The notes beneath the pieces were generated by a model, which did no database searches, was not told the DNA's origin, and was given only the letters and a program-made list of their open reading frames with translations. From Gemmatimonadota bacterium (GTDB taxonomy: Bacteria > JAAXHH01): 64,000 bases of DNA. Shown here piece by piece: positions 5,364 to 23,522 of the stretch (positions are counted from its first letter, which is position 1; each line of letters begins with the position of its first letter). The DNA lies in NCBI GenBank assembly GCA_026702745.1, contig JAPPBT010000079.1, positions 1-64,000 on the forward strand. Direction: 5' to 3'. Position numbers and translations under genes: made by a program.

Positions 5364-5437
5364 GCGCACCCCGATTCCAAAGGCCGACTCGGACTGGGCG
5401 ACGATACGCGCACCCCGATTCCAAAGGCCGACTTGGA
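5364..5437. repeat. direct repeat, two ~30-bp copies 44 bp apart
   Basis: The block gcgcaccccgattccaaagg, continuing gccgact, occurs at 5364 and again at 5408, with one C/T change near its end. It sits directly upstream of the DUF624 start codon and between two divergent transcription units. No protein or RNA function is apparent. Confidence 0.9.
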
Positions 5438-5454
5438 CGCAATACAACGCCAGC

Positions 5455-5483
5455 ATGGTACAGGCTGCCCCCCGAATTCGCAA
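5455..5483 (-). promoter_or_regulatory. possible promoter of the DUF624-tmk unit
   Basis: On the minus strand TTGCGA (5478-5483) and TACCAT (5455-5460) are separated by 17 bases. Each matches four of six consensus positions. The predicted transcript would start about 90 bases before the DUF624 ATG. This is a weak match, proposed because a divergent promoter is expected here. Confidence 0.35.
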
Positions 5484-5507
5484 CTGTTTTCTTGGTGAGA
5501 AAAAACC

Positions 5508-5536
5508 TTGACTTTACCGCCGTACCGCGCTATAAT
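5508..5536 (+). promoter_or_regulatory. sigma70-type promoter of the aromatic supra-operon
   Basis: TTGACT (5508-5513) and a perfect TATAAT (5531-5536) are separated by exactly 17 bases. The start of transcription would be near 5543, leaving a leader of about 390 bases before trpEG. A perfect 13-base palindrome TTCGGCAGCCGAA lies at 5550-5562, just after the predicted start, and could be an operator or the first hairpin of the leader. Confidence 0.88.
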
Positions 5537-5549
5537 GGCGCATTCGACA

Positions 5550-5562
5550 TTCGGCAGCCGAA
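5550..5562. promoter_or_regulatory. 13-base palindrome at the predicted transcription start
   Basis: TTCGGC-A-GCCGAA is a perfect inverted repeat about 8-20 bases after the predicted start, followed by ACGGTTTTT. In DNA it could be a repressor site; in RNA it would form a small hairpin followed by a short U run. There is no direct evidence for either. Confidence 0.4.
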
Positions 5563-5590
5563 CGGTTTTTACATCGAGCATTGGACTGAA

Positions 5591-5710
5591 ATGACAGCCG
5601 CAAGTTCGTCCCGGTCATCCCGATTCTACGCTTGGCGGAAGCAGAGCGATCTGTTTACCTGGTGGCCTTTTTACGGGACGAGGCGGCATGTCATGCGAAG
5701 CGGCGCCTGA
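5591..5710 (+). CDS. candidate aromatic-rich attenuator leader peptide (39 aa)
   Basis: This short frame begins with ATG 48 bases after the predicted start of transcription and ends at TGA 5708-5710. Residues 12-28 read FYAWRKQSDLFTWWPFYG: three Trp, three Phe and two Tyr among 17 residues, with tandem Trp codons at 5660-5665. A GGACTGAA stretch before the ATG may serve as a weak ribosome-binding site. Its place between promoter and intrinsic terminator, upstream of trpEG, is that of a leader peptide used for ribosome-mediated attenuation. The Phe and Tyr codons suggest that the other aromatic amino acids are sensed too, which fits the genes downstream. Confidence 0.7.
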   Translation: MTAASSSRSSRFYAWRKQSDLFTWWPFYGTRRHVMRSGA

Positions 5711-5742
5711 TTGAAGTAGATTCATCCTTCGTTGATTTGACC

Positions 5743-5780
5743 GGCCTCTACCCTCACAAGGTAGCGGCCTTTTTTATTTT
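5743..5780 (+). terminator. intrinsic terminator / attenuator before trpEG
   Basis: GGCCTCTACC (5743-5752) pairs with GGTAGCGGCC (5760-5769), nine of ten positions, around a CTCACAA loop. It is followed by TTTTTTATTTT. It lies about 78 bases after the tandem Trp codons and 150 bases before the trpEG start, so it would stop transcription before the structural genes. Upstream segments that could compete for its 5' arm include GGTGGCC over the Trp codons (5661-5667) and GAGGC near 5680. I could not compute which folds are stable. Confidence 0.85.
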
Positions 5781-5930
5781 ATGGGGTGGTCGAAGACGGA
5801 CCGCTGAAGGCGTGAGATTCGTGTCGACGCTACGCTTGAGGTCGACGGGCACGTCGGGTGAATCAAAGACGGGCCGCTAACAGGGTTGGGGATACCTTAA
5901 GGATCAGTTCACCGGGAGCGGGACAGGATC
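5781..5930 (+). other. leader remainder between attenuator and trpEG
   Basis: These 150 bases hold a ribosome-binding region GGGAGCGGGACAGG just before the trpEG ATG. They also hold two similar short blocks, gaagacggaccgctga (about 5810) and aaagacgggccgctaa (about 5866). I see no second promoter and no further conserved element such as a T-box. Confidence 0.5.
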
Positions 5931-8174
5931 ATGCGAGTTACCCATATACACCTGGAAGCCATCGAATACCAGACCGAGGGCGGCCTGGCCGTCAAGCGGT
6001 ACGCCGAGCATCTTTCTCCGGACGAAGCCATTGAACCCGTTATCGACGCGCTCGATGCCCACCTGGGCGCCCTGTTCGCGTCCGGCTACGAGTATCCCGG
6101 AAGATATACCCGGTGGGACATGGGGTTCGTCGATCCGCCGATCCGGATCGAAACCCGGGAGAACGCCTTCCTTATCGAAGCCCTGAACGCCCGGGGCGGG
6201 GTGTTGCTGCCCGCGATCCTCGCGCAGGTCGAAGGTCTGCGGGCCACGCGTGCCGTTGCCCGTCACGAAGAACGCATCACCGGCGAGGTGCATACGCCCG
6301 GCGGACATTTCACGGAAGAGCAGCGCAGCCGTCAACCCTCCGTATTCTCGATCCTGCGGGGGATCATAGACCTCTTCTCCTGCCCGGACGAACATCATCT
6401 CGGCCTCTACGGCGCCTTCGGCTACGACCTTGCCTTTCAGTTCGAACCCATGGACTACCGGCTAAGCCGCCCGGCGGACCAGCGGGACCTGGTGCTCTAC
6501 CTGCCAGACCGGCTGGTGACGGTCGATCACAACCGCGAGGTGGCCGTCCGGTACGACTACGAATTCGATACAGGCGGCGGGTCTACCCAGGGCCTGCCCA
6601 GGGAAGGCGCCGTCCAGCCCTACCGTGCGGGACGGGCCACGGCCGCCCGGGAATTCGAGAAGGGCGCTTATGCCGACGTCGTCCGCAAGGCGCAAGAGTA
6701 TTTCAGGAGAGGTGACCTGTTCGAAGTCGTGCCCAGCCAGACCTTCTACGAGTCCTGCCCGGACCCGCCCTCCGAAATCTTCCGCCGCCTGAGGGAACGG
6801 AATCCCGCGCCGTACGCCACGCTCATCAACCTGGGACAGCGCGAATATCTGGTCGGCGCGTCGCCAGAGATGTTCGTCCGGGGCGAAGGGATCCGTATCG
6901 AGACCTGCCCCATTTCAGGTACGGTCAGCCGGGGGAACGACGCGCTGAGCGACGCCGACCAGATCCTCAAGCTGCTGAGCTCGGAGAAAGAGGAGTCCGA
7001 GTTGACCATGTGTACGGACGTGGACCGGAACGACAAGTCGCGGATCTGCGTGCCCGGCAGCGTTCGGGTCATCGGACGGCGCCAGATTGAGATGTACTCG
7101 AGAGTGATCCACACGGTCGACCACGTGGAAGGCATCCTGCGGCCGGAGTATGATGCGCTGGACGCCTTTCTCGCGCACACATGGGCGGTCACCGTGACCG
7201 GCGCGCCGAAGATATGGGCGATGCGGTTCATCGAAAACAATGAACGGTCGTGCCGCGCCTGGTATGGCGGCGCGATCGGATTCCTCGGATTCGACGGGAA
7301 CATGAACACGGGGCTTACCCTCCGGACCATACGCATCAAGGACGGTATCGCCGAGGTGAGGGCCGGGAGCACGCTGCTGATCGACTCCGATCCGGGGGAC
7401 GAGGAGCGTGAGACGGAACTCAAGGCCATGGCGTTCATCGATGCGATCGGGCGTCCCCGGGAATCCCAGGGGGGAAGCGCCCATCCCGGATTCGCGGAAG
7501 ACGCCGGATCGGGAAAGCGCGTGCTGCTGATGGACTATGAGGATTCTTTCGTGCATACGCTGGCCAACTACCTGCGCCAGACCGGCGCCGATGTCATGAC
7601 GGTCCGAACGGGCATCTCGCGGTCCAAGCTGATGGAACTCATGGACGCCTACGACCCGGACCTGGTCTTTCTGTCGCCCGGTCCCGGCCAGCCGTCGGAT
7701 TTCGACGTGGCGCTGGCCATCGACGCGGCGCTGGAACGGGCGCTGCCCGTCTTCGGTGTCTGCCTCGGGCTGCAGGGCATCGTCGAGTACTTCGGCGGTA
7801 CCCTGGGTGTGCTGCCCTATCCCATGCACGGGAAGGAGTCGCGCGTGATCGTCCGGGACAGGCGGTCCGGACAAGCCGGGCGGACCGGGACCCTGTTCGA
7901 AGGGTTCCCCCAGTCCTTCACCGTAGGCCGCTATCACTCGCTGCATGCCGAACGCGATCGGCTGCCGCCTGAACTTACCGTCACGGCGGAGACGGAAGAC
8001 GGCGTCGTCATGGCCATCGAACACCGCACCATGCCCGTGGCGGCGGTACAGTTCCATCCCGAGTCCATCATGACGCTCAAGGACGGGATCGGCATCCGGC
8101 TCATCGACAATGTCTTCAGGTATCTGGTCAAAGCGGCCGACGCGGTGGACGCGCGCCGGGAGGGCAGTCCATGA
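5931..8174 (+). CDS. trpEG: anthranilate synthase, fused TrpE-TrpG
   Basis: Converts chorismate and glutamine to anthranilate, the first committed step to tryptophan. The 747-residue protein joins a TrpE chorismate-binding component (residues 1 to about 505, with PISGTVSRG and GGAIGFLGFDG) to a class I glutamine amidotransferase (from about residue 527). The amidotransferase has nucleophile Cys611 in GVCLGLQG and His709/Glu711 in QFHPES. The N-terminal YEYPGRYTRWDMGF is typical of single-chain TrpE(G) proteins, known for example in rhizobia, rather than of separate TrpE. It follows the attenuator leader and overlaps trpS by ATGA. Confidence 0.95.
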   Translation: MRVTHIHLEAIEYQTEGGLAVKRYAEHLSPDEAIEPVIDALDAHLGALFASGYEYPGRYTRWDMGFVDPPIRIETRENAFLIEALNARGGVLLPAILAQVEGLRATRAVARHEERITGEVHTPGGHFTEEQRSRQPSVFSILRGIIDLFSCPDEHHLGLYGAFGYDLAFQFEPMDYRLSRPADQRDLVLYLPDRLVTVDHNREVAVRYDYEFDTGGGSTQGLPREGAVQPYRAGRATAAREFEKGAYADVVRKAQEYFRRGDLFEVVPSQTFYESCPDPPSEIFRRLRERNPAPYATLINLGQREYLVGASPEMFVRGEGIRIETCPISGTVSRGNDALSDADQILKLLSSEKEESELTMCTDVDRNDKSRICVPGSVRVIGRRQIEMYSRVIHTVDHVEGILRPEYDALDAFLAHTWAVTVTGAPKIWAMRFIENNERSCRAWYGGAIGFLGFDGNMNTGLTLRTIRIKDGIAEVRAGSTLLIDSDPGDEERETELKAMAFIDAIGRPRESQGGSAHPGFAEDAGSGKRVLLMDYEDSFVHTLANYLRQTGADVMTVRTGISRSKLMELMDAYDPDLVFLSPGPGQPSDFDVALAIDAALERALPVFGVCLGLQGIVEYFGGTLGVLPYPMHGKESRVIVRDRRSGQAGRTGTLFEGFPQSFTVGRYHSLHAERDRLPPELTVTAETEDGVVMAIEHRTMPVAAVQFHPESIMTLKDGIGIRLIDNVFRYLVKAADAVDARREGSP

Positions 8175-9244
8175 GCCAACTTATGAATCGACCCATGAAC
8201 CGACCCGCAGTCATCCTGACGGGAATCAAGCCCACGGGCAGTCCGCACCTCGGCAACTACATCGGCGCCATCCGGCCCGCGCTGGAGCACGCGCGGCGGT
8301 CGCCCGACGTGCGTGCCATGTATTTCCTGGCGGACTACCACGCACTGACGCTCGTCAAGGACCCTGTGCGATTCAGGGACCTGTGCCACGAACTCGCCGC
8401 GACCTGGATCGCCTGCGGACTAGATCCCGAACGGCAGGTCTTCTACCGCCAGTCGGACGTGCCGGAGGTGTTCGAGCTGTCCTGGATCCTGTCCTGTTCG
8501 ACGTCGAAGGGCCTGATGAACCGCGCCCACGCGTACAAGGCGCACGTGGATCGTCACACGCGAGGCGGACGGGACGCGGACTCCGGGAATCCGGACGCCG
8601 GGGACGCGGACGCCGGGGACGCGGACGCCGGGGTGAATATGGGCTTGTATTCCTATCCCATACTCATGGCGGCGGACATCCTGCTGTTCCAGGCGAAGTA
8701 CGTACCGGTGGGACGGGACCAGGAACAACATATCGAGATCGCCAGGGACATTGCCGCGCGTTTCAATCGGTCCTTCGGCGACGTGCTCACCCTGCCGGTA
8801 TATCTGTCCGACCCTTCAACGGCCGAGATTCCCGGCACGGACGGAAGAAAGATGAGCAAGGCCTATAACAATACCATACCGCTTTTCGGGTCGCGCGAGC
8901 AGTTGCGCAAGGCCATATTCGGGATCAAGACGGATTCGAGTCCGCCCGGCGCGCCCAAGGACCCCGGGACGTCGCTCGTATTCCAGATCTACAGGCAGTT
9001 CGCGGACCGGGACCGGACCGAGTCGATGCGGAACCGGCTGGAGCGGGGACGGATTACGTGGAAAGCGGCCAAGGAAGAGTTGTTCGACCTTGTCGACGGT
9101 TTGCTGGAACGTCCAAGGGCGGTCTACGAGGAACTGATGGCCGACCGGACCCGCATCGACCGCTTGCTGGAATCGGGCGCCAGCAGCGCGCGGGAACTGG
9201 CCCGGCCGACCATGGAGACCGTGCGGCAGGCGGTGGGGCGATAG
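8171..9244 (+). CDS. trpS: tryptophanyl-tRNA synthetase
   Basis: Charges tRNA-Trp. This 357-residue class I synthetase has the HIGH-type motif PHLGNYIG after GIKPTGS, and the KMSKS-type motif KMSKAYNN. An acidic insert near residues 135-155 (DADSGNPDAGDADAGDADAG) is encoded by 15-bp tandem repeats at 8578-8632, between the conserved Rossmann-fold parts. The rest is of normal length. It overlaps trpEG by ATGA, so its expression should follow the same attenuator, linking tryptophan supply and tRNA charging. Confidence 0.95.
   Translation: MSQLMNRPMNRPAVILTGIKPTGSPHLGNYIGAIRPALEHARRSPDVRAMYFLADYHALTLVKDPVRFRDLCHELAATWIACGLDPERQVFYRQSDVPEVFELSWILSCSTSKGLMNRAHAYKAHVDRHTRGGRDADSGNPDAGDADAGDADAGVNMGLYSYPILMAADILLFQAKYVPVGRDQEQHIEIARDIAARFNRSFGDVLTLPVYLSDPSTAEIPGTDGRKMSKAYNNTIPLFGSREQLRKAIFGIKTDSSPPGAPKDPGTSLVFQIYRQFADRDRTESMRNRLERGRITWKAAKEELFDLVDGLLERPRAVYEELMADRTRIDRLLESGASSARELARPTMETVRQAVGR
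8578..8632. repeat. 15-bp tandem repeat inside trpS
   Basis: The unit ggacgccggggacgc occurs 2.7 times from 8593, preceded by a degenerate copy at 8578. It encodes a DAG/DAD acidic loop in tryptophanyl-tRNA synthetase. The unit length keeps the reading frame. Confidence 0.92.
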
Positions 9245-9362: not shown

Positions 9363-10373
9363 ATGATTCAGCAGGCCATTGCGAAGGCGATCGACGGGAT
9401 CTCGCTGACCGAAGCGGAAGCCGTGGAGGTCATGAATGGGATCATGTCGGGGGACGCCACGCCGGCGCAGATCGGCGCGTTCCTCGTCGCATTCCGTCTG
9501 AAGGGCGAGACGATCGAAGAGGTCACCGGGTTCGCCAGGGTCATGCGCGACCGGGCCACGCGGGTCGAATGTCGGGCTTATCCCATCGTGGATACCTGCG
9601 GCACGGGCGGCGACGGAAAGCATACGTTCAATATATCGACGGCAGCAGCTTTCGTGGCCGCGGCCGCGGGCGCCTTTATCGCCAAGCACGGCGGCCGCGC
9701 GGCATCCAGCAAGGCGGGCAGTGCCGACGTGCTGACGGCCCTGGGCGTCAATATCGAAACGCCGCCGGAAAGGGTGTCCGCCTGCATCGACGAGATCGGC
9801 ATCGGGTTCATGTTCGCCCCGGCCCTCCATTCGGCCATGCGGTTCGCGAGCGGTCCGCGCCGGGAACTCGGCGTGCGGACGGTGCTCAACCTGCTGGGAC
9901 CGCTCACAAATCCGGCCGGGACCACGGCCCAGGTCATGGGCGTGTACGACGCGAGTGTCATCCAGACCGCCGCCCACGTGCTGAACAACCTGGGGGCGGA
10001 GCGCGCTTTCGTGGTGCACAGCGCAGACGGCCTGGACGAGTTCACCACCACCGCGCCGACCCACGTGGCGGAGGCCCGGGACGGCGTCGTGCGGACCTAT
10101 GACGTCGCGCCGGAAGACTTCGGTCTGCCGCGGGCGTCCATCGAGGACCTCAAAGGGGGCGAGGTGGAAGAGAACGCGGAGATCATCCAGTCCGTGCTGG
10201 CCGGGGAATCCGGTCCCCGGCGGGACATCGTCCTGCTTAACGCCGCGGCGGCGATCGTGGCCGGCGGTGCCGCGGAGGACTTCGACGAGGGTATCGAAAA
10301 GGCGGCCCGGGCCATCGACACCGGCGGGGCGCGGGAGAAACTCGACGCACTGGTCCGCATGACCGGCGAATGA
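9363..10373 (+). CDS. trpD: anthranilate phosphoribosyltransferase
   Basis: Transfers phosphoribose from PRPP to anthranilate. The 336-residue protein has the glycine-rich PRPP site DTCGTGGDGKHTFNIST, then KHGGRAASSKAGSADVL, and further on FAPALHSAM and LGPLTNPA, all characteristic. The ATG at 9363 follows a GGAAGGGACAGGG purine run and gives the usual start MIQQAIAKAIDG. The in-frame ATG at 9318 would add 15 atypical residues. The 118-base gap after trpS is the largest inside the trp half of the operon and shows no clear signal. Confidence 0.95.
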   Translation: MIQQAIAKAIDGISLTEAEAVEVMNGIMSGDATPAQIGAFLVAFRLKGETIEEVTGFARVMRDRATRVECRAYPIVDTCGTGGDGKHTFNISTAAAFVAAAAGAFIAKHGGRAASSKAGSADVLTALGVNIETPPERVSACIDEIGIGFMFAPALHSAMRFASGPRRELGVRTVLNLLGPLTNPAGTTAQVMGVYDASVIQTAAHVLNNLGAERAFVVHSADGLDEFTTTAPTHVAEARDGVVRTYDVAPEDFGLPRASIEDLKGGEVEENAEIIQSVLAGESGPRRDIVLLNAAAAIVAGGAAEDFDEGIEKAARAIDTGGAREKLDALVRMTGE

Positions 10374-10416: not shown

Positions 10417-11262
10417 ATGAATATCCTGGATCGGATCGTAGCGCATAAGATCGAAGAGGTGGAAGACCGGAAGCGGCGCATGCCCCTGCCGGTTGCCGGA
10501 CCCGAAACCGGGCCCGTACGCCGCCGCGATGTCCGGCCCTTCGACCGTGCGCTGAAACAGGGAAACGGCATCGGGGTCATCGCCGAATTCAAGAAGGCTT
10601 CGCCCTCGAAGGGGGCGATCCGTTCCGACGCGGCGCCCGTGGAGATCGGACCGGTCTATGCAGCCCATGGGGCATCGGCCATATCGGTGTTGACGGACCG
10701 GCGGTTCTTCCAGGGCAGCGACGAGGACCTGGTGGCCCTTCGGCGGTGCGTCCCCGTGCCTGTGCTGCGCAAGGAGTTTATCGTGGACGAGTACCAGGTG
10801 CACGAGACCGCGGCGTTGGGTGCGGACGCCATGCTGCTCATCGCGGCCATCCTGGACGACTCCCGCCTGACGGCCCTGCAGCGGACCGCGGCGGACTGCG
10901 GTCTGCACTGCCTGGTGGAAGTGCACGACGAGCGGGAACTGGACCGGGCCCTGGCGGCGGGCAGCCGCATCATCGGCATCAACAACCGGGACCTGGCGGA
11001 CTTCACCGTTACGCTGGATACGTCGCTGCGTCTCAGGCCGCGCATCCCCCGGGACATCGTGACCGTCAGCGAGAGCGGCATCCATGGGCGCGAGGACGTC
11101 CTGCGGCTGCAAGAGGCGGGATTCGACGCCGTACTCGTGGGCGAGTCCCTGATGGGGGCGGAGGAGATCGGCGGACAACTGGACGCCCTGCTGGGCCGGT
11201 CCATCGAGAAGGCGCAACAGGGGATCCGAAGGCGAACGGCTTCCCCGGGGACAGGGCCATGA
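10417..11262 (+). CDS. trpC: indole-3-glycerol phosphate synthase
   Basis: Closes the indole ring from carboxyphenylamino-deoxyribulose phosphate. The 281-residue TIM barrel shows VIAEFKKASPSKG with the catalytic lysine, the LRKEFIVDEYQ strand with the second lysine, IGINNRDLADFTVTLDTS, and the phosphate-binding VSESGIHGREDV. It overlaps trpF by ATGA, so the two are probably coupled. Confidence 0.95.
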   Translation: MNILDRIVAHKIEEVEDRKRRMPLPVAGPETGPVRRRDVRPFDRALKQGNGIGVIAEFKKASPSKGAIRSDAAPVEIGPVYAAHGASAISVLTDRRFFQGSDEDLVALRRCVPVPVLRKEFIVDEYQVHETAALGADAMLLIAAILDDSRLTALQRTAADCGLHCLVEVHDERELDRALAAGSRIIGINNRDLADFTVTLDTSLRLRPRIPRDIVTVSESGIHGREDVLRLQEAGFDAVLVGESLMGAEEIGGQLDALLGRSIEKAQQGIRRRTASPGTGP

Positions 11263-11873
11263 ATTCGGTCAGGATCAAGATCTGCGGCATTACGAACGAG
11301 GCGGACGCCGCCGCGGCGGTTCGCGCGGGCGCGGACGCGCTCGGGTTCATCTTCTATGAGGGCAGTCCCCGCTGCGTGACGCCGGGCCGGGCCGCGGAAA
11401 TCGTGGCCGGACTGCCGCCCTTTGTCGTCCCGGTGGGCGTATTCGTGAACGCGTCGGCCGACGACGTGGACGGAATCTGCGGGGCCGTGGGTATCCAGGT
11501 CGTGCAGCTCCACGGCGACGAACCACCCGGTTTCTGCGAAGCACTCGGGCGCCCGGTCATCAAGGCCTTTCGCGTCAGGGACGCATCGTGGAAATCCGAC
11601 GCAGAGGGCTATCCCGTCGACGCGGTACTACTCGATACGTATGCCGAAGACCGGTACGGCGGCACGGGGGCCACCTTCGACTGGTGGCTCGTGGAAGGCA
11701 GTCCCCACCGTGTCATCCTGAGCGGCGGGCTGAATCCGGACAACGTGGCCGAGGCCGTAAGCTGCGTGCGGCCCTACGGCGTGGATACGGGCAGCGGCGT
11801 GGAGCGTGAACCGGGCCGCAAGGACCACGGCAAGATCCGTGATTTCGTGGAGGCGGTGAGGCGGCCTATATGA
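11259..11873 (+). CDS. trpF: phosphoribosylanthranilate isomerase
   Basis: Isomerises phosphoribosylanthranilate. The 204-residue barrel begins VRIKICGITNEADA with the catalytic cysteine in KICG. It continues with GFIFYEGSPR and ends with the phosphate-binding LSGGLNPDNVAEAV and GVDTGSGVE segments. The start ATG overlaps the trpC stop, and trpF in turn overlaps aroE by ATGA. An upstream in-frame ATG at 10746 exists only inside trpC and is not used. Confidence 0.95.
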   Translation: MNSVRIKICGITNEADAAAAVRAGADALGFIFYEGSPRCVTPGRAAEIVAGLPPFVVPVGVFVNASADDVDGICGAVGIQVVQLHGDEPPGFCEALGRPVIKAFRVRDASWKSDAEGYPVDAVLLDTYAEDRYGGTGATFDWWLVEGSPHRVILSGGLNPDNVAEAVSCVRPYGVDTGSGVEREPGRKDHGKIRDFVEAVRRPI

Positions 11874-12757
11874 CCTCTTCGCTTGAAAACGGGCCCATCG
11901 GCCTCGCCATATCGGGTTCGACCCGCGTGGTCGGCGTATGCGGCCAGGGCATCGGGTATACGCTTTCGCCGGCCATGCACAACGCGGCCTTTCGCCATTG
12001 CGGACTGGATTACGTGTATGTAACCTTCGAAATCGCGGCCACCGAAGTGCGGCGGGCCGTCGACGGCATCCGGGGGCTGGGGCTGGCTGGGGTCAACGTG
12101 ACCAAGCCGCTCAAGACGGACGTGCTGCCCTATCTGGACGAGGTGTCCGAAGAAGCCCGCAGGATCGGCTCGGTCAACACCATCGTGAACCATGGGGGCC
12201 GCCTCGCTGGCATGTCGACGGACGGCGACGGACTGTTGCGGGCGCTCGAGGAAAAAGGCGTAGCCGTCGCCGGTTCGAGAATGTTGATCCTGGGCGCGGG
12301 AGGAGCGGCCCGGGCGGCCTGCGCCATGGCCCGCGGGCAGGGGGCCGCATCGATTACCATTGCCGCACGCAACGTGGACCGGGCCCGGGACACGGCGTCG
12401 GTGGGTGGCGCAAAGGCGATCACGCTTTCGCCATCGGACCTCGGCGTCGCGGTCCGTGGCGCCGACCTGGTGATTAACGCGATCCCGGAAGACCTGCCGC
12501 TGGGAGGTGACTGGTTTTACGAAGGGCAGTTCGTCTACGACACGCGTTACGACCAGGCGGAGACCGGACTGATGCGATGCGCCCGGTCGCGGGGCGCGGA
12601 AAGCTCGAACGGCATCGGCATGCTGCTGTTCCAGGGTGCGGCGTCTTTTGAAATCTGGACCGGCCACGCGGCGCCGGTCGAAGTGATGAGAAGCGCGTTG
12701 GAGAAACAGCTAAGGCACAGGAAGGCTCGGGAGGAGAAGGCATGTTGCGATACCTGA
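11870..12757 (+). CDS. aroE: shikimate dehydrogenase
   Basis: NADPH-dependent reduction of 3-dehydroshikimate. The 295-residue protein has the substrate site [18 protein letters not shown] with the catalytic lysine, GSVNTIV, and a dinucleotide-binding [11 protein letters not shown]. The first 25 or so residues (through STRVVGVCG) are slightly longer than usual. It overlaps both trpF (ATGA) and aroC (16 bases). This marks the switch from trp to shikimate genes within one transcript. Confidence 0.93.
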
Positions 12758-13899
12758 CCGCAGGCGAATCACACGGACCGGCCATATCGGCAATTCTCGA
12801 AGGTCTGCCCGCGGGGCTGCCGGTGGCTGCGGAAGACATCAACCGGGACCTGAAACGGCGCCAGGGCGGATACGGCCGGGGCCGGAGAATGCAGATCGAG
12901 ACCGATACGATCGAGATCCGGGGCGGCGTGCGCCACGGCAGGACCATGGGCGGACCGGTTTCTCTCGTCGTGCAGAACCGGGACTGGCAGAACTGGACGG
13001 ACGTCATGGCGATCGAGGAGGCCGACGGTCCGGTGAGGCGGCGGGTGACCCGGCCCCGACCCGGCCACGCCGATCTCGCGGGCGGACTGAAGTACGACCG
13101 ACGCGATCTGCGGGACATCCTGGAACGGGCGAGCGCGCGGGAGACGACCATGCGGGTCGCGGTCGGCGCGGTCGCCCGTTCCCTCCTCGCTCAGTTCGGC
13201 ATGCGCGTGCTCAGCCACGTGGTGCGGATCGGGCAGGTGGACGCGGACGTGAGCGCCCTGTCGAACGATGAGATCATCGACCGGGCCGAAGCCTCTCCCG
13301 TGCGCTGCGCCGATGAAGACGCCGCGCAGAAGATGATCGCGGAGATCGACCGGGCGAAGTCTCTCAAGGACACGATCGGCGGGGTCTTCGAGGTCAAGGT
13401 GCTGAACGCGCCGCCCGGCCTCGGCAGCCATGTGCAGTGGGACCGCAAGCTCGACGGACGGCTGGCCCAGGCGGTCATGAGCATACAGGCCGTGAAGGGC
13501 GTGGAGATCGGGCTGGGTTTCGGCGTGACCCGGGTCCTCGGTTCGGAGGTCCACGACGAGATCTTCTACGAAGGAGGACGGTTCTACCGCGAAACGAACC
13601 GGGCCGGCGGCGTCGAGGGCGGCATGACCGAAGGCGAGGAAATCGTCGTCCGCGGCGCGCTCAAGCCCATCGCGACGCTCATGCGCACGATCATGTCGGT
13701 GGATATCGAGTCCAAGGAAGCCTTCGATTCCGCCAAGGAGCGGTCGGACGTGTGCACCGTGCCCGCCGCCGGCGTGATCGGCGAAGCGGTGGTGGCCTTC
13801 GTTGTCGCCGACGCCATGCAGGAGAAATTCGGGGGCGACAGTCTGGAGGAAATGAAGCGCAACTACCAGGGCTACATGGACCAGCTGGCGCGGTACTAG
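12742..13899 (+). CDS. aroC: chorismate synthase
   Basis: Makes chorismate from EPSP with reduced FMN as cofactor. The 385-residue protein starts [20 protein letters not shown], has [25 protein letters not shown] and [18 protein letters not shown], and ends near [12 protein letters not shown] as full-length members do. It overlaps aroE by 16 bases. After its TAG stop the same frame stays open for 30 more codons with coding-like composition (to 13992), which may be a lost or alternative C-terminal extension. Confidence 0.95.
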
Positions 13900-14021: not shown

Positions 14022-15626
14022 GTGGCTGAGTCTGGAGCACATCAATCCGGCGGAATCGTCCTTATCGGTTTCATGGGCACGGGCAAGACGGCGGTGGGCT
14101 GGCGCCTCGCACGGGCCCTGGGCGTGCCCTTCGTGGACACCGACGCGCTGATCGAAAAGAAGGCCGCGGCGCGTATCCCCGAGATCTTCGAGCAGCGGGG
14201 GGAGACCGGTTTCCGGGCGATCGAGAAGTCTGTCATCCGGAGCCTCGCCGACGGGGTGCGCAGAGTGATCGCCACGGGCGGCGGCGCGGTGCTTGATCCG
14301 GACAACTTCGACGTGCTGCGGTCGCTGGGTCCGGTCATACATTTGAACGCGCCGGCAGAGACGGTACTGGCGCGCACGCGGGGCGATTCGGGGACCCGGC
14401 CGCTCCTGACCGGGGAAGACCCGCTGGAACGGATCCGGTCACTCCAGCGCGAGCGAGCGCCGGTCTACGGCGGGGCGGACCATGAAGTCGACACGTCGCG
14501 GCATTCGATCGAGGATATAGTGGAGATGGTCAAGGCCTGGGTAGAAAGCGAAGAACGGGTGATCCGAGTGGACCTCGGATCCGACAGCTATGACATCGTG
14601 ATCGGGCCCGATGTGCTCGACCGGCTGGGAAGCCGTATGACGTCTTTCGATCTGACCGGCCGCGCGCTGGTCGTGACCCATCCGGGCATCGCGCAGCGCT
14701 ACGGCGGTCGGACGACAGACTCTCTGCGGTCGGCCGGGTTCGAACCGGATCTGGTCGAAGTTCCGGACGGCGAGGCGCAGAAGTCGCTGCAGTGGGCTGA
14801 GAAACTCTATGACGCCATGCTGGCCCACGGGATGGACCGCCGTTCCCCCGTTATCGCGCTGGGCGGCGGGGTCATCGGCGACCTGGCCGGTTTCGCCGCG
14901 GCCACTTTCCTGCGCGGCGTCCCGTTCGTCCAGGTCCCCACCTCGCTCCTGGCCCAGGTGGACGCCAGCGTGGGGGGCAAGGTGGCCGTGGACCACCGCC
15001 GCGGGAAGAACCTGATCGGTGCGTTCTACCAGCCCCTGCTCGTGCTGGCCAGCCTGGATACGCTCGACAGCCTTCCGGACCGGGAACTGCGTGCGGGCAT
15101 GGCGGAAGTGATCAAGTATGGCGTCATTGCAGACCCAGGACTGTTCGCCTATATTGAGGGGCGCCTGGACGATATACTGAAACGCGACCGCGGCGTGCTG
15201 GCGCACCTCGTGGCGCGGTCCTGCGAGATCAAGGCGGAAGTGGTCGCCGGAGACGAACGCGAACATGGACGGCGAGCCATCCTCAACTTCGGCCATACCA
15301 TGGGCCACGCCATCGAGACGCAGACGGGCATGCTGCACGGCGAGGCCGTGGCCATCGGCATGGTCTACGCCGCCCGGGTCGCGGAGCGCATGGGCCTGCT
15401 GGACGGCGAAAGCGTCCGGCGGCTGATCGAACTGGTGCGGCGCACGGGGCTGCCCTGCCGGTGCGACGGACTGGACGTCCCGGCGACGATCGAGACCATG
15501 AAGTTCGACAAGAAGTCGGTGGGCGGCCGCCCGCGTTTCATCCTGCCCAGCCGCATCGGCGAGGTGGCCGTACGCGACGACGTGCCCGCCGAATACATCC
15601 GGTCCGTCCTCGCGACGGGGAACTAG
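14022..15626 (+). CDS. aroKB: shikimate kinase / 3-dehydroquinate synthase fusion
   Basis: One 534-residue chain carries two shikimate-pathway enzymes. Residues 1 to about 175 are shikimate kinase, with P-loop GFMGTGKT, the shikimate-binding DTDALIE, the [10 protein letters not shown] segment and ATGGGAVLD. From about residue 178 ([15 protein letters not shown]) it is NAD-dependent dehydroquinate synthase, with [35 protein letters not shown], the zinc-site region EVIKYGVI, and [12 protein letters not shown] chose the in-frame GTG at 14022, preceded by GGACGGGAA, because no ATG fits before the P-loop. Fused AroKB proteins are known in a few other lineages. Confidence 0.92.
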
Positions 15627-15660: not shown

Positions 15661-16110
15661 ATGATGAAAATACTCGTATTGCACGGTCCGAATCTGAACA
15701 TGCTGGGCGTCCGGGAACCGGAAGTCTACGGTACGGACACGCTGGAGGACATCAACCGGTCCCTCGAGACGGCCGCGGCGGGACAGGGGATTGAGGTGCG
15801 CATCCGCCAGTCCAACCACGAGGGGGTGCTGGTGGACGAGATTCAGGATGCCCTCGGCTGGGCCGACGGCATCCTGATCAATCCCGGCGCGTACACCCAC
15901 ACGAGCATCGCCCTGCGCGACGCGATCGTCGCCGTGGGCCTGCCCGTGGTGGAAGTCCACCTGTCGGACATACACGCCCGGGAAAAGTTCCGGCATCATT
16001 CCTATATCGAGCCCGTGGTCCTCAGGCAGATCTGCGGACACGGAAGCGACAGCTATCGGCTGGGCCTGGAGGCCCTGATCGACCACATCAGCATTGGGAG
16101 CGAAGGATGA
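15661..16110 (+). CDS. aroQ: type II 3-dehydroquinate dehydratase
   Basis: Dehydrates 3-dehydroquinate to 3-dehydroshikimate. The 149-residue size and motifs are those of the small dodecameric type II enzyme: [21 protein letters not shown] with the catalytic tyrosine loop, [17 protein letters not shown], and [18 protein letters not shown]. Two adjacent ATG codons (15661 and 15664) are possible starts. It overlaps trpB by ATGA. Confidence 0.95.
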
Positions 16111-17315
16111 CGGCGATCACGCTGCCCGACCAGCGCGGACATTTCGGGATATTCGGCGGCCGCTACGTTCCGGAGACGCTGATGACGGCCCTGGACGAGC
16201 TGCTGGACGTCTACGAGGCGGCAAAAACAGATCCGGAATTCGAGGAGGAATTCCGTTACTACCTCCGGGACTACGTGGGCCGTCCGTCCCCCCTCTACTA
16301 CGCGGAGCGGTTGACGCAGACCCACGGCGGCGCGCGGATCTATCTCAAGCGGGAGGACCTGAACCACACGGGCGCCCACAAGATCAACAACACGATCGGC
16401 CAGATCCTGCTCACCCGGCGCATGAAGAAACCACGGGTCATCGCGGAGACCGGTGCGGGCCAGCACGGCGTGGCCACGGCCACCGTGGCCGCCCGCTTCG
16501 GCCTGGAATGCGATGTCTACATGGGTTCCGAGGACATGGAACGCCAGGCGCTGAACGTCTTCCGCATGCGCCTGATGGGCAGCCGGGTCATCGCCGTCGA
16601 CGCGGGCAGCCGCACGCTGAAGGACGCGCTGAACGAGGCCCTGCGGGACTGGGCGACCAACGTCCGCCATACCCATTACATCATCGGATCGGTGGCGGGG
16701 CCCCATCCCTTCCCCATGCTGGTGCGCGATTTCCAGTCGGTCATCGGCCGGGAAGCGCGGGAGCAGGTCCTGGAGAAAGAAGGGCGGCTTCCCGATGTGC
16801 TCGTCGCCTGTGTGGGGGGCGGCAGCAACGCCATCGGGCTCTTTCATCCCTTCCTCGGCGACGGCGTTCGCCTGGTCGGCGTGGAGGGCGCGGGACACGG
16901 GCTGGATACGGGGATGCACGCGGCGACGCTGGGCATCGGCACGCCAGGCGTCCTGCACGGCGCCATGAGTTATACCGGACAGGACGCGAACGGCCAGATC
17001 CAGGTCGCCCACTCCGTCTCCGCGGGACTCGACTATCCCGGTGTGGGACCCGAGCACAGTTACCTGAAGGATTCCGGCCGCGCGGAGTACGTGAGCGTGA
17101 CCGACGACGAGGCGCTGGAGGCCTTCGAACTGCTCTCCAGGGTCGAAGGCATCATACCCGCGCTCGAAAGCGCCCACGCCATCGCCCATATCGCCCGGAT
17201 CGCCCCGGAAATGGACCGGGAGGAGGTCATCGTCGCCGGGCTGTCGGGCCGCGGAGACAAGGACGTCGAGCAGGTGGACGGGTTGCTGGCCCGGCGCGAA
17301 GAGGACGCTGAATGA
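16107..17315 (+). CDS. trpB: tryptophan synthase beta chain
   Basis: Joins indole and serine to make tryptophan, using PLP. The 402-residue protein shows [10 protein letters not shown] near the N-terminus, the PLP lysine in [29 protein letters not shown], and the phosphate-binding [10 protein letters not shown]. It is the canonical TrpB1 type that works with TrpA. It sits in a chain of ATGA overlaps (aroQ-trpB-trpA). Confidence 0.97.
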
Positions 17316-18133
17316 ACCGGATCGAAGAGACCTTCGCATCGCTGAAGTCCGCGGGCCGCACGGCGCTGATCCCCTACATCATGGCGGGGGACCCGGACCT
17401 GGAAACGACGGCCTCGCTGGTCGTTGAAGTGGATCGCCGCGGGGCCGACCTGGTGGAACTGGGCGTGCCCTTCTCCGATCCCATCGCCGACGGCCCCACG
17501 ATCCAGCGCGCCGCGTTGCGGGCCCTGGACCGGGGCACGACCCTGCGGGCCATCGTCGACACGGTAGCCTCGATCAGAAAGCAGTCCTCCATACCCATTG
17601 TCTTGATGACCTACTACAACCCGGTGCTCGCTTACGGGATTGGGGAATTCTGCCGGGATGCCGCCCGCGCGGGGGTGGACGGCCTGATCGTGCCCGATCT
17701 GCCGCCGGAGGAAGGGGCCGAACTGTCCGATGCCTGCCGGCGGCACGGCCTCACCGTCGTCTTCCTGGTGGCGCCCACGAGCACTACGCAGCGGATCGAA
17801 CTGGTGAACCGTCACTCCACGGGGTTCGTCTACTGCGTCTCCCTCACGGGCGTCACGGGCGCGCGGGGAGAGCTGGCGGACGGGGTGGACGCGTTCATGG
17901 CGCAGGTGCGGTCCCACACAGACCGGCCTCTCGGGCTGGGCTTCGGCATCTCGTCGCCGGAGCAGGCCGGAGAGGCCGCGCGACTGGCCGACGGGGTCAT
18001 CGTGGGCAGCGCCATCATCAACGTGATGGAAGCGCACGCCGGCAAGCCGGACATGCTCCGGTCCGTGGGCGAATACGTGGCTTCACTGAGGACGGGTATA
18101 GACCAGGGAACACCGGTGCCCGCACAGGGCTAG
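17312..18133 (+). CDS. trpA: tryptophan synthase alpha chain
   Basis: Cleaves indole-3-glycerol phosphate and passes indole to TrpB. The 273-residue barrel has the catalytic glutamate in [17 protein letters not shown], the second catalytic aspartate in DGLIVPDLP, and [10 protein letters not shown] at the phosphate site. It overlaps trpB by ATGA. A 186-base gap follows before aroH. Confidence 0.96.
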
Positions 18134-18319: not shown

Positions 18320-18685
18320 ATGGTCCGAGGCGTTCGCGGCGCCATAACCGTTGAATCGAATACAGCGGAAGCCATTCGAAGCGCGGCCCATCGGCTGCTT
18401 ACGACGATTATGGACCGAAACGGCATCGAACTGGAACAGATCGCCAGCGTGGTTTTCTCCGTGACGAAGGATATCGACGCGGAATCGCCCGCTTATGGCG
18501 TGCGGCAGATGGGATTGGTCGCCGTTCCCCTGTTCAGTCTGCAGGAAATGGAGGTCCCGGGTTCGCTTGTCCGTTGCGTACGGGTACTGGTTCATATAAA
18601 CACCGACAAATCACAGGACGAAATACGGCATGTGTACCTGGACGGCGCCGTCGTGCTCCGGCCGGACATCGCCGGGAGGGAATGA
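18320..18685 (+). CDS. aroH: monofunctional AroH-class chorismate mutase
   Basis: Rearranges chorismate to prephenate, the branch to Phe and Tyr. The 121-residue protein begins MVRGVRGAITVESNT and has the AroH-type pattern (RGVRGAI, FSVTKDIDAESPA, HVYLDGAVVLRPD), not the helical AroQ fold. Start 18320 is fixed by GGAGGAACT just upstream; longer in-frame versions lack a binding site. It is followed after one base by the DAHP synthase gene. Confidence 0.93.
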   Translation: MVRGVRGAITVESNTAEAIRSAAHRLLTTIMDRNGIELEQIASVVFSVTKDIDAESPAYGVRQMGLVAVPLFSLQEMEVPGSLVRCVRVLVHINTDKSQDEIRHVYLDGAVVLRPDIAGRE

Positions 18686-18686
18686 A

Positions 18687-19703
18687 ATGGTCGTCGTAAT
18701 GAAACCGCAGGCCACGGAAGCACAGAAGGAACACGTCCGCGAGACGATCCGGGCCTTCAGATGCAAACCACGGGATATCCAGGGGGACGTGATCACCATC
18801 ATCTGTCTTATCGGCAATACGCTCAGTCTCGTTCCCGAACAGTTCGAGATCCTGGAGGGGGTGGACCGCGTTCAGCGCATCCAGCGGCCCTACAAGCTGG
18901 TGAGCCGGGAGGTGCAGCCGCACAAGACCCGTTTCAAGGTGGGCGACGTAATGATCGGCGGCGACGGCATCGCCATCATCGCCGGTCCCTGTTCCGTCGA
19001 ATCCTACGACCAGTTCCTGGAGGCGGCGCAGCACGCCCGATCCGCAGGGGCCCATATCATACGCGGCGGAGCCTTCAAGCCCAGGACCTCGCCCTACAGC
19101 TTCCAGGGGCTCGGTGAGGAGGGCCTGAAGATCATGGCCCGGGTCAGCGAGGAAACAGGCCTGCCGACCATCTCGGAAGTGATGGAGCCCGAGATGGAAC
19201 CCATGGTCTCGGAATACGTGGACATGCTGCAGATCGGCGCCCGGAACATGCAGAACTATCCGCTGCTGAACGTCGCGGGACGGAGCAGCAAGCCCGTCAT
19301 GCTCAAGCGGGGCATGTCCGCCACGCTCGAAGAGATGCTCCTGGCGGCCGAGTACATCCTGGCGGCGGGGAACCACAACGTCGTCCTGTGCGAAAGGGGC
19401 ATCCGGACTTTCGAGACCTGGACCCGGAACACCCTCGACATCTCCGCCGTACCGGTGCTGCAGAAATACACCCATCTGCCCGTGTTCATCGACCCGAGCC
19501 ACGGGACCGGCAACGCCGATTTCGTGGGGCCGGCCGCCCGGGCGGCCGTGGCGGTGGGCGCCGACGGGCTCATGATCGAGATGCATCCGACGCCGGAGCG
19601 CGCGCTGTCCGATGGGGACCAGTCCCTGACTCCGGAAGCGCTGACCTCCCTGATCCCGGAACTGCAGGCGGTCGCGACGGCCGTCAACCGGACCATCGGC
19701 TGA
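18687..19703 (+). CDS. aroF: DAHP synthase, type I beta with N-terminal ferredoxin-like domain
   Basis: Condenses PEP and erythrose 4-phosphate to start the shikimate pathway. The 338-residue protein has a small N-terminal domain (residues 1 to about 70, ending RVQRIQRPYKLVSRE). In this family such a domain mediates allosteric control. The catalytic barrel follows, with IIAGPCSVES, RGGAFKPRTSPYSFQG, IGARNMQN, and the metal ligands around LCERGIRTFE and FIDPSHGTG. Start 18687 follows GGGAGGGAATGAA. Confidence 0.95.
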   Translation: MVVVMKPQATEAQKEHVRETIRAFRCKPRDIQGDVITIICLIGNTLSLVPEQFEILEGVDRVQRIQRPYKLVSREVQPHKTRFKVGDVMIGGDGIAIIAGPCSVESYDQFLEAAQHARSAGAHIIRGGAFKPRTSPYSFQGLGEEGLKIMARVSEETGLPTISEVMEPEMEPMVSEYVDMLQIGARNMQNYPLLNVAGRSSKPVMLKRGMSATLEEMLLAAEYILAAGNHNVVLCERGIRTFETWTRNTLDISAVPVLQKYTHLPVFIDPSHGTGNADFVGPAARAAVAVGADGLMIEMHPTPERALSDGDQSLTPEALTSLIPELQAVATAVNRTIG

Positions 19704-19711
19704 GCTGGCCT

Positions 19712-20575
19712 ATGCGCATTACCATTATCGGCGTGGGACTGCTGGGCGGTTCCTTCGGCATGGCGGTCCGGAAGGCGGGGGCGGCGGAACGCGTCGCGGG
19801 CGTCGACCTGGACCGGGCCGTACTGGACCGGGCCCTGGAGCGCGGCGCCATCGACGCGGGATACCTTGAAACGGCCGAAGGGGCGGAAGGCGCCGACCTG
19901 GTCGTACTCGCCACGCCCGTGCGGTCTATCCTGGACATGGTGCCCCGCCTCGCGCCGCTCCTCGGTGAGGAGACCATCCTCCTGGACCTGGGCAGCACCA
20001 AGGAGGCCATCGTTTCCGCCATAGCCGGCGAGGCCGGCATCAGGCGGTACGTCGGCGGCCACCCCATGGCGGGTACCGAGCACACCGGCATCGACCACGC
20101 CGATGACGGGCTGTTCCAGGGCGCGACCTTCGCCCTGGTTCCGCCGCCCGCGGTGGATGTAGGCGCGCTCGACCTGCTCAGGGACCTGGTCCGCCGGATC
20201 GGGGCGCGTCCCGTCGTCATTCCCGCCGAGCGCCACGACCGGATCGTCTCCGTCACCAGCCACCTGCCCTACCTGTTGTCCGTGGTGCTGGCCCTTGCCG
20301 CGGAGCAAACGGCGCGCGAGGAAGAACGCCTGGGTGAGTTCGCCGCGTCGGGATTCCGGGACACGACCCGGCTGGCTGCGTCCACCGTGCGGGTGATGGC
20401 CGACATCTGCCTGACCAACGGACGGCCCCTGCTGCGCGGCATCGAGGACGCCAGGCGGTTGCTCGACGACCTGGCGGCGCAGATCGAGGAGGGGCGCGAA
20501 ACGGAACTGGTGGAGACGCTGACGAAGGCGAAGGATAGCAGGGCCGCGTTGCTGGGTGAAAGGAGGACCGATTGA
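19712..20575 (+). CDS. tyrA: prephenate dehydrogenase
   Basis: Oxidatively decarboxylates prephenate to 4-hydroxyphenylpyruvate for tyrosine. The 287-residue protein has a Rossmann start ITIIGVGLLGGSFGMAVR, VVLATPV, LLDLGSTKEAI, and the substrate-site GGHPMAGTEHTG, then a helical C-terminal part (SHLPYLLSVVLAL, SGFRDTTRLAAS). No ACT or chorismate-mutase domain is attached. The ATG at 19712 is 8 bases after the previous stop. It overlaps pheA by TTGA. Confidence 0.94.
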   Translation: MRITIIGVGLLGGSFGMAVRKAGAAERVAGVDLDRAVLDRALERGAIDAGYLETAEGAEGADLVVLATPVRSILDMVPRLAPLLGEETILLDLGSTKEAIVSAIAGEAGIRRYVGGHPMAGTEHTGIDHADDGLFQGATFALVPPPAVDVGALDLLRDLVRRIGARPVVIPAERHDRIVSVTSHLPYLLSVVLALAAEQTAREEERLGEFAASGFRDTTRLAASTVRVMADICLTNGRPLLRGIEDARRLLDDLAAQIEEGRETELVETLTKAKDSRAALLGERRTD

Positions 20576-21414
20576 AGAAGTACAGGACCGGCTTCCAGGG
20601 CGAGCTGGGAGCCTTCAGCGAAATGGCCGTGCTCGCCTATTTCGGAGACGGGGCCGAACCGGTACCCCACGGATGGTTCGACGACGTGTTCCGCGCCGTG
20701 GACGAGGGCAGCTGCGACTACGGCATGCTGCCGATCGAGAACACCCTGGCGGGCAGCATCCACGTCAACTACGACCTGATGCAGGAGCACGACCTGCAGA
20801 TCGTGGGCGAAATCGTGCTCCGCATCGTCCACAACCTGATGGCGAAACCGGGTGTCCGGCCGGAGGAGCTCCGCCGGGTCCAGTCCCATCCCAAGGCGCT
20901 TGAACAGTGCGTCCGGTTCTTCCGGGAGCATCCGTCGATGAAACCCGACACCGTGTACGATACGGGCGGGGCGGCCAAGATGCTCGGGGAGGGAGATGCC
21001 CGGGACGTCGGCGTCATCGCGAGCACGCGGGCCGCGGAGCGTTACGGACTCGAGATCCTGGAAAGCGGGATCGAGGACAACGTCCAGAACTATACGCGTT
21101 TCCTGGTCCTGGGCAAAGAGCCTGAACCACCGGAGGGCGAACGCCTGAAGACCTCCATCGTGTTCTCGGTGCCCCACGAACCCGGCATGCTGTTCAAGGC
21201 CATGAGCGTCTTCGCGCTGCGGGATATCTCCATCAACAAAATCGAATCGCGGCCCCTGGTCGGATCCCCCTGGGAGTACCTGTTCTACCTGGATTTCGAG
21301 GGTCACGCGGAGAGCCTGCTCTGCAGCCGGGCGCTCAACCATCTCCGGGAGATCGCGGCAAACTACAAGCTACTGGGCTCCTATGCCGAGGGCCGCATCG
21401 TGGACCGGGTTTGA
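20572..21414 (+). CDS. pheA: prephenate dehydratase with ACT domain
   Basis: Converts prephenate to phenylpyruvate. The 280-residue protein has the catalytic domain FQGELGAFSEMA, LPIENTLAGSIHVNYDL, and the conserved NYTRFLVL. A C-terminal ACT domain follows (KTSIVFSVPHEPGMLFKAM, then NKIESRPLVG), which in this family binds phenylalanine for feedback inhibition. There is no chorismate mutase domain; aroH supplies that step. The start is TTG at 20572, with AGGAGG five bases upstream and a TTGA overlap with tyrA. It ends the supra-operon, facing rqcH. Confidence 0.94.
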   Translation: MKKYRTGFQGELGAFSEMAVLAYFGDGAEPVPHGWFDDVFRAVDEGSCDYGMLPIENTLAGSIHVNYDLMQEHDLQIVGEIVLRIVHNLMAKPGVRPEELRRVQSHPKALEQCVRFFREHPSMKPDTVYDTGGAAKMLGEGDARDVGVIASTRAAERYGLEILESGIEDNVQNYTRFLVLGKEPEPPEGERLKTSIVFSVPHEPGMLFKAMSVFALRDISINKIESRPLVGSPWEYLFYLDFEGHAESLLCSRALNHLREIAANYKLLGSYAEGRIVDRV

Positions 21415-23233: not shown

Positions 23234-23369
23234 GACGGCTCCATCCTGATTCCGGTTCCGGTGCGATCTTTGTTCGATGACGTTCCACGCCGGCGGGACC
23301 ACCGCGTTCCGCCTTTTGCTTAATATAACGGGACCGGCTACGTCATGGGTGATGATTCTTCTTTTCGGC

Positions 23370-23457
23370 CTGCCCGTGGCGTGCCCGGAGCGTACCCGGA
23401 GCGTACCCGGAGCGTAACCGTGGCGTGCCCGGAGCCTGCCCGGGGCGTGCCCGAAAT
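23370..23457. repeat. 11-bp tandem repeat, eight copies
   Basis: Eight contiguous 11-bp units resemble gtgcccggagc, the closest ones being gtgcccggagc and gtacccggagc and the last one gtgcccgaaat. The unit is not a multiple of 3 and the tract lies between two divergent genes. It is noncoding in my reading. Confidence 0.93.
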
Positions 23458-23493
23458 GGGCGGGAACGCCGCCGGACGGCCACCAATATGTTA

Positions 23494-23522
23494 TTGACAA
23501 ATCGCCGTTTAGCGTGTATTTT
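23494..23522 (+). promoter_or_regulatory. sigma70-type promoter of the yicC-gmk-rpoZ run
   Basis: Perfect TTGACA (23494-23499), 17-base spacer, TATTTT (23517-23522, four of six matches). The predicted start is about 40 bases before the yicC ATG. This is the only good promoter before a 16.6 kb co-directional run of genes. Confidence 0.8.

Follow-up and report, generated by a model that had tools for sequence, protein, structure and literature searches.

Several branched-chain amino acids are sensed by known leaders, and multivalent leader peptides precede the ilvGMEDA and thr operons; among aromatic systems, the pheA and pheST genes of enterobacteria are preceded by Phe-rich peptides with attenuators, and the rhizobial trpE(G) leader (peTrpL) provides an attenuator ahead of a fused trpEG gene. 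To our knowledge, each of the known aromatic attenuators senses one amino acid and serves one branch. In the classical trp scheme, ribosome stalling leads to pairing of strands 2 and 3 and to readthrough, and arrival of the ribosome at the stop codon leads to 3:4 pairing and termination (Elf and Ehrenberg, PMC1183508); ilvGMEDA, thr, and pheA are numbered among the attenuated operons in the same account. Trp codons are the sole regulatory codons of actinobacterial trp attenuators (PMC1262725). In the part of it available, a 2005 survey of tyrA reports supra-operons containing tyrA, aro, and, once, trp genes that are apparently attenuator controlled (PMC1173090); the attenuators there are putative and taken from a database and leader peptides go undiscussed in that part, whereas a leader peptide is described here.

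The locus that we describe lies in a stretch of DNA of 64,000 nucleotides (the window) and recurs in all 16 available genomes of the Latescibacterota, an uncultured phylum. It is very probably a ribosome-mediated transcription attenuator of the classical four-strand type, predicted to respond to Phe, Tyr, and Trp and to control nearly the whole aromatic pathway; this reading is founded directly on leader anatomy, conservation, constraint at the RNA level, and computed switching, from which we infer ribosome stalling, termination in vivo, and a single long transcript. As in E. coli trpL, a leader ORF, mutually exclusive 1:2, 2:3, and 3:4 pairings, and a terminator lie ahead of trpE, strand 1 overlies the regulatory codons, and strand 2 would be covered by a ribosome that has reached the stop codon; trpL differs in sensing Trp only and in serving five trp genes, whereas here the codons of three amino acids precede 15 shikimate, Trp, Tyr, and Phe genes, and the Rfam model of trpL did not match this leader in sequence. 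The ilvGMEDA and thr leaders are alike in that one peptide, with codons for several amino acids of a shared pathway, controls that pathway, but their codons are branched-chain or Thr/Ile codons, and they are enterobacterial and unrelated in sequence. The pheA and pheST leaders are also attenuators but contain regulatory codons for Phe only and govern one branch or one synthetase. The rhizobial peTrpL attenuator likewise precedes a fused trpEG but has Trp codons only, and since the Latescibacterota leader is also found before unfused trpE, it is not tied to the fused gene.

In the window, a sigma-70-type promoter on the plus strand (TTGACT-17-TATAAT, 5508 to 5536; 11/12 consensus match) is followed on the same strand by a 39-codon leader ORF (5591 to 5710; stop codon at 5708) and by an intrinsic terminator, the 3:4 hairpin (GGCCUCUACC-loop-GGUAGCGGCC plus U6, 5743 to 5775). 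The encoded peptide, MTAASSSRSSRFYAWRKQSDLFTWWPFYGTRRHVMRSGA, contains three Phe, three Trp, and two Tyr residues, 8 of 39 overall and 8 of 17 between F12 and Y28, an enrichment with a P value of 2e-3 against the 6.2% F+W+Y background of neighbouring proteins. The terminator hairpin, GGCC-T-CTACC/GGTAG-C-GGCC, occupies 5743 to 5769 and is succeeded by TTTTTT at 5770 to 5775; its free energy of -15.3 kcal/mol (z score, -4.9) was equalled by none of 200 shuffles. The original prediction, made from this DNA alone, had described the consensus promoter before trpEG, the 39-codon frame with its run of 8 aromatic residues in 17, and a strong hairpin plus T run at 5743 to 5780; all were recovered, with only the extent of the hairpin requiring correction. 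A terminator-like match at 5550 to 5571 in the 5' UTR was discarded, as it is not conserved in relatives, and terminator-like sites on the plus strand between 5440 and 21600 were no commoner than in shuffles.

Promoter, aromatic-rich ORF, and nearly identical terminator were found at the equivalent position in all 16 Latescibacterota genomes; 15 leaders were located by DNA match, one in each genome, and the sixteenth (G015) by reading upstream of trpE. The promoter conforms throughout to TTGAC(T/A)-15/17-TATA(A/T)T, and in every genome in which both sides were read the leader has a divergent YesL-like gene plus tmk on one side and trpE on the other. The leader peptides differ between genera but are nearly identical within the genus; those of other genera are MTTVTYFPISFMGYWRQSFLFTWRPFYGKRRDVKRSHEHE (G013), MSFMLPVFFSYSFRPFWQAFRFVWRPFYPAIARRDTTRS (G012), MCDAHRSPQSFRPYLFQAWPWRPFPFTPWYFYGFPVGREVRRSIEPGL (G014), and MTFIVSPISVYRIQAWLWRVFPFTRWFFTGLR (G015). 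All 16 contain 8 to 12 F/W/Y residues in 32 to 48 codons, with all three kinds in each, and the enrichment in the leaders of four divergent genera is stronger (P values, 1e-4 to 3e-6); the aromatic content on which the original prediction depended is thus retained across the phylum. Scanning of 84,980 species with the terminator pattern returned 11 contigs, all from this phylum. No TrpR was detected in any of the 16 genomes by a search that recovers the E. coli control, which suggests that transcription may be controlled chiefly by the attenuator.

Minimum-energy structures of full leaders contain the terminator together with a 1:2 hairpin, the anti-antiterminator, in which strand 1 (GCCUU, plus strand, 5665 to 5669, over the Trp25-Pro-Phe27 codons) pairs with GAGGC at 5680 to 5684. 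The latter forms part of strand 2 (GGG..GAGGCGGCAUGUCAUGCGAAG, plus strand, 5675 to 5700), which lies within the final codons of the ORF and was delineated by folding and by pairing in the alignment. Strand 3 (CUUCGUUGAUUUGACCGGCCUCUACCC, plus strand, 5727 to 5753), supported by folding, shuffles, and alignment pairing, takes in GCCUC from the 5' arm of the terminator, so that the 2:3 antiterminator and the terminator are mutually exclusive. Standard pairs fill 89.9% of the strand 2:3 alignment cells, compared with 34 to 53% when the strands are slid by one to three columns; covariation is modest, four pairs being changed on both sides where shuffles give 1.3 and reach 4 in 14 of 500 trials, and is weak column by column because the genus members are near identical and the helix register slips in other genera. 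Competing pairings had been suspected in the original prediction, which could not establish an antiterminator; folding now supplies one, and the alternative hairpins are kept in the homologous leaders. The objection that GGTGGCC over the Trp codons would impose the wrong logic falls away, because this element supplies strand 1 (GCCUU) of the hairpin with GAGGC. Placed over the Trp codons, strand 1 gives the correct classical logic: a stalled ribosome would melt 1:2 and free strand 2 for the antiterminator.

Switching was modelled by removing the RNA beneath the ribosome at each codon and computing the probability of the terminator from folding. For the window leader this probability was 0.99 without a ribosome, 0.01 to 0.12 for stalls at F12, Y13, W15, F22, and W24, 0.61 at W25, and 0.98 to 0.99 from F27 through the stop codon. 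With a smaller assumed ribosome footprint W25 became productive (0.01) and F22 uncertain (0.43 to 0.95), the value for a Phe22 stall ranging from 0.02 to 0.95 according to the footprint assumed. Sensing is therefore predicted to rest on Phe12, Tyr13, Trp15, Phe22, Trp24, and probably Trp25; stalls at Phe27 and Tyr28 are not predicted to antiterminate because, in the model, they lie too near strand 2. In the sequence of events that we propose, RNA polymerase would start near 5543, as judged from the promoter, and a ribosome would then begin the 39-codon leader. When charged tRNA-Phe, tRNA-Tyr, or tRNA-Trp is short, the ribosome would stall at Phe12, Tyr13, Trp15, Phe22, or Trp24/25 and block strand 1, strand 2 would pair with strand 3 and trap the terminator 5' arm, and transcription would read through into the 15-gene trp-aro-tyr-phe operon. 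When all three amino acids are plentiful, the ribosome would reach the stop codon and cover strand 2, and the terminator would form, ending the transcript near 5775; with no ribosome present, the 1:2 and 3:4 hairpins would likewise give termination.

Leaders of G007, G003, G004, G011, and G013 switched in a fashion similar to that of the window, and those of G014 and G015 had fewer switching codons. At equilibrium, spacer shuffles matched the real switch in 4, 1, 1, 0, 7, 13, and 4 of 300 cases in seven leaders, the best stall codons for G014 and G015 having been picked after inspection of their profiles. The G012 terminator is too strong for switching at equilibrium (0.6 to 1.0 for all stalls); at the stage when its 3' arm is yet to be transcribed, trapping of the 5' arm reaches 0.75 to 0.78 with stalled ribosomes and 0.33 with the ribosome at the stop codon, and predicted switching in this genome is supported by the kinetic view only. 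Across nine leaders, this view gave trapping of the 5' arm of about 0.75 to 1.00 for most aromatic stalls, except at the last one or two aromatic codons, and of 0 to 0.33 with the ribosome at the stop codon in all nine. The kinetic measure did not exceed shuffles for most leaders (36 to 113 of 300 as high; 0 in G013 and 21 in G015, the exceptions), since it scores every pairing that GCCUC makes, and the equilibrium competition is the discriminating test.

The alternative that survives best, though we consider it improbable, is that the ribosome-mediated attenuator effectively senses Trp alone, or Trp and Phe, and that the Tyr codons are a by-product of the RNA sequence of strand 1. Tyr by itself is not significantly enriched in any leader (P values, 0.07 to 0.54), Tyr28 occupies a position at which the model predicts no antitermination, and the UUUUUAC/U stretch belongs to conserved RNA near strand 1. 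Against this, Tyr at codon 13 or 14 is retained in all 12 members of the genus while the adjoining codons change (YA, YY, HY, DY, and NY), a stall there is predicted to antiterminate, every one of the 16 leaders has at least one Tyr, and the operon ends in tyrA and pheA. Productive stalls for each of Phe, Tyr, and Trp are predicted for this genus and for G013, and more weakly for G012, G014, and G015, with Tyr not being enriched on its own. The original prediction that a shortage of any aromatic aminoacyl-tRNA would stall the ribosome thus holds for Trp and Phe, for which modelled sensing is well supported by codon content and position, and is less firm for Tyr, the weakest leg of the trivalent reading, which leans on the retention of codon 13/14 amid changing neighbours.

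Near identity of the peptide within the genus, and a recurring core (F-T-W-(W/R)-P-F-Y in two of the genera, F-V-W-R-P-F-Y in another), could indicate instead that the peptide arrests the ribosome through a ligand or its own sequence, as in TnaC, or acts in trans after release, as in peTrpL. We regard this as quite unlikely, since synonymous positions are conserved equally to amino acids within the genus. Mean identity to the window there is 97.5% for codons 11 to 40, 99.7% for the spacer, and 98.3% for the terminator, and 78 to 81% for the 5' UTR and upstream DNA; among the three most diverged members, 73 of 75 third positions of leader codons 16 to 40 are identical (24 to 25 of 25 each), and among the most diverged members the non-coding spacer is 97 to 100% identical. 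Fourfold sites of trpD, aroC, trpB, and aroF are only 65 to 67% identical between the window and G003 and G004. The disparity between leader third positions and spacer (96 to 100%) and fourfold sites (about 66%) implies constraint on the RNA in addition to that on the peptide. Genera also differ in how many aromatic residues their peptides have (8 to 12) and in where these lie, the conserved Arg-Arg is accounted for by strand 2 (AGGCGG), and codon stalls already predict switching, all of which favor the four-strand attenuator over an arrest or trans-acting peptide.

Behind the leader, profile searches identified 15 plus-strand genes between 5931 and 21414, many with overlapping ends: trpEG (5931 to 8174; fused anthranilate synthase, TrpE-clade3, TIGR01815 at 1110 bits); a second trpS, for tryptophan--tRNA ligase (8171 to 9244; the other copy is on contig C18); trpD (9363 to 10373); trpC (10417 to 11262); trpF (11259 to 11873); aroE (11870 to 12757); aroC (12742 to 13899); aroK-aroB, shikimate kinase and 3-dehydroquinate synthase in a single frame (14031 to 15626); aroQ, a type II dehydroquinase (15661 to 16110); trpB (16107 to 17315); trpA (17312 to 18133); aroH, chorismate mutase (18320 to 18685); aroF, DAHP synthase (18687 to 19703); tyrA, prephenate dehydrogenase (19709 to 20575); and pheA, prephenate dehydratase (20572 to 21414), the final gene before a convergent gene at 21434. 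The starts of trpD, trpF, aroK-aroB, aroH, and tyrA are approximate. The sole common-trunk gene outside the cluster is aroA (contig C46). The shikimate, Trp, Phe, and Tyr genes of the original prediction are thus confirmed; that they share one transcript is suggested by spacing and strand. The convergent gene (21434 to 23500) resembles RqcH/NFACT ribosome-rescue proteins, and its position beside an operon predicted to be controlled by stalling is probably a coincidence. At the other edge of the window, positions 1 to 345 hold three tRNA genes on the minus strand.

The order trpE-trpG-trpD-trpC-trpF-aroE-aroC-aroKB-aroQ-trpB-trpA-aroH-aroF-tyrA-pheA is complete in G003, G013, and G004 (over two pieces in G004), and the same cluster was followed to the contig limit in G012 and G014. 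G013 has a 427-aa gene between trpA and aroH (L052, 6918 to 8201), which by eye resembles ornithine cyclodeaminase-like proteins of the TIGR00300 family; G012 has a gap of about that length at this place. TrpEG is fused in ten genus members, the window included, and the same leader is followed by separate trpE and trpG in G003, in G004, and in every other genus (the G015 contig ends before trpG). The second trpS is inside the operon of nine genus members, in addition to a housekeeping copy elsewhere; in G004 a separate trpG is followed by the decayed N terminus of trpS (MNQPDVILTGIKPPDGPLIGNYAG..). The span replaced in place corresponds to 5931 to 9244 of the window, as seen by comparison of loci L056, L058, and L026-L028. 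The presence of fused and of separate genes behind one leader indicates that the leader is older than the present first genes in this genus.

The terminator intervenes between the promoter and trpEG, and the stretch from 5790 to 5930 that separates the terminator from the gene is long and poorly conserved, as would be expected if the promoter-terminator pair produced an independent small RNA or marked where a short gene unrelated to the operon ends, with the operon using a different promoter. This is very unlikely: the promoter at 5508 to 5536 is the only sigma-70-like site on the plus strand between 5440 and 21600, the antiterminator is conserved, and in other genera the first gene follows closely on the terminator (<30 nt in G012), leaving little space for a second promoter. 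T-boxes are common before the aromatic operons of low-GC Gram-positive bacteria, but a T-box, or another riboswitch that binds tRNA or protein, is barely credible here, as it would leave the aromatic-rich ORF unexplained and an Rfam search of the leader region gave nothing relevant at gathering and no amino-acid leader (Trp_leader, Phe_leader) or T-box even at an E value of 10.

Further upstream, the sequence GCAACTGTTTTCTT (5480 to 5493) is kept in all genera, as GCAACCCTTTTCTT in G015, at a distance from the -35 box that varies from 26 to 87 nt; it may be part of the promoter of the divergent YesL-like gene (TTGC being the -35 element on the other strand) or a regulator site. The divergent gene carries two copies of a short repeat, CCCCGATTCCAAAGGCCGACTYGGAC, at its 5' end (5367 to 5437); their number varies among genus members, and the genome has no copies beyond these two.

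In summary, the mechanism is a known one, and what looks new is that one leader would sense all three aromatic amino acids on behalf of a supra-operon and is fixed throughout a phylum. A literature search found no description of a leader whose codons cover Phe, Tyr, and Trp together, which is weak evidence given that most subscription journals lie outside its coverage, and no attenuator described for the Latescibacterota. A single transcript, with a single switch that would fire on any uncharged tRNA of the three, seems to serve the shikimate trunk together with the Trp, Phe, and Tyr branches, which raises the question of how a cell short of Tyr only avoids overproduction of Trp and Phe; feedback inhibition would need to provide the fine-tuning. 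On balance, we favor the view that, throughout the phylum, nearly all of the aromatic pathway is switched chiefly by one trivalent attenuator, and that this was kept while the genes behind it were exchanged, separate trpE-trpG for fused trpEG, a second trpS being present in some cases and absent in others. The locus illustrates clearly how a cis-regulatory RNA can be retained while the first genes behind it are replaced.
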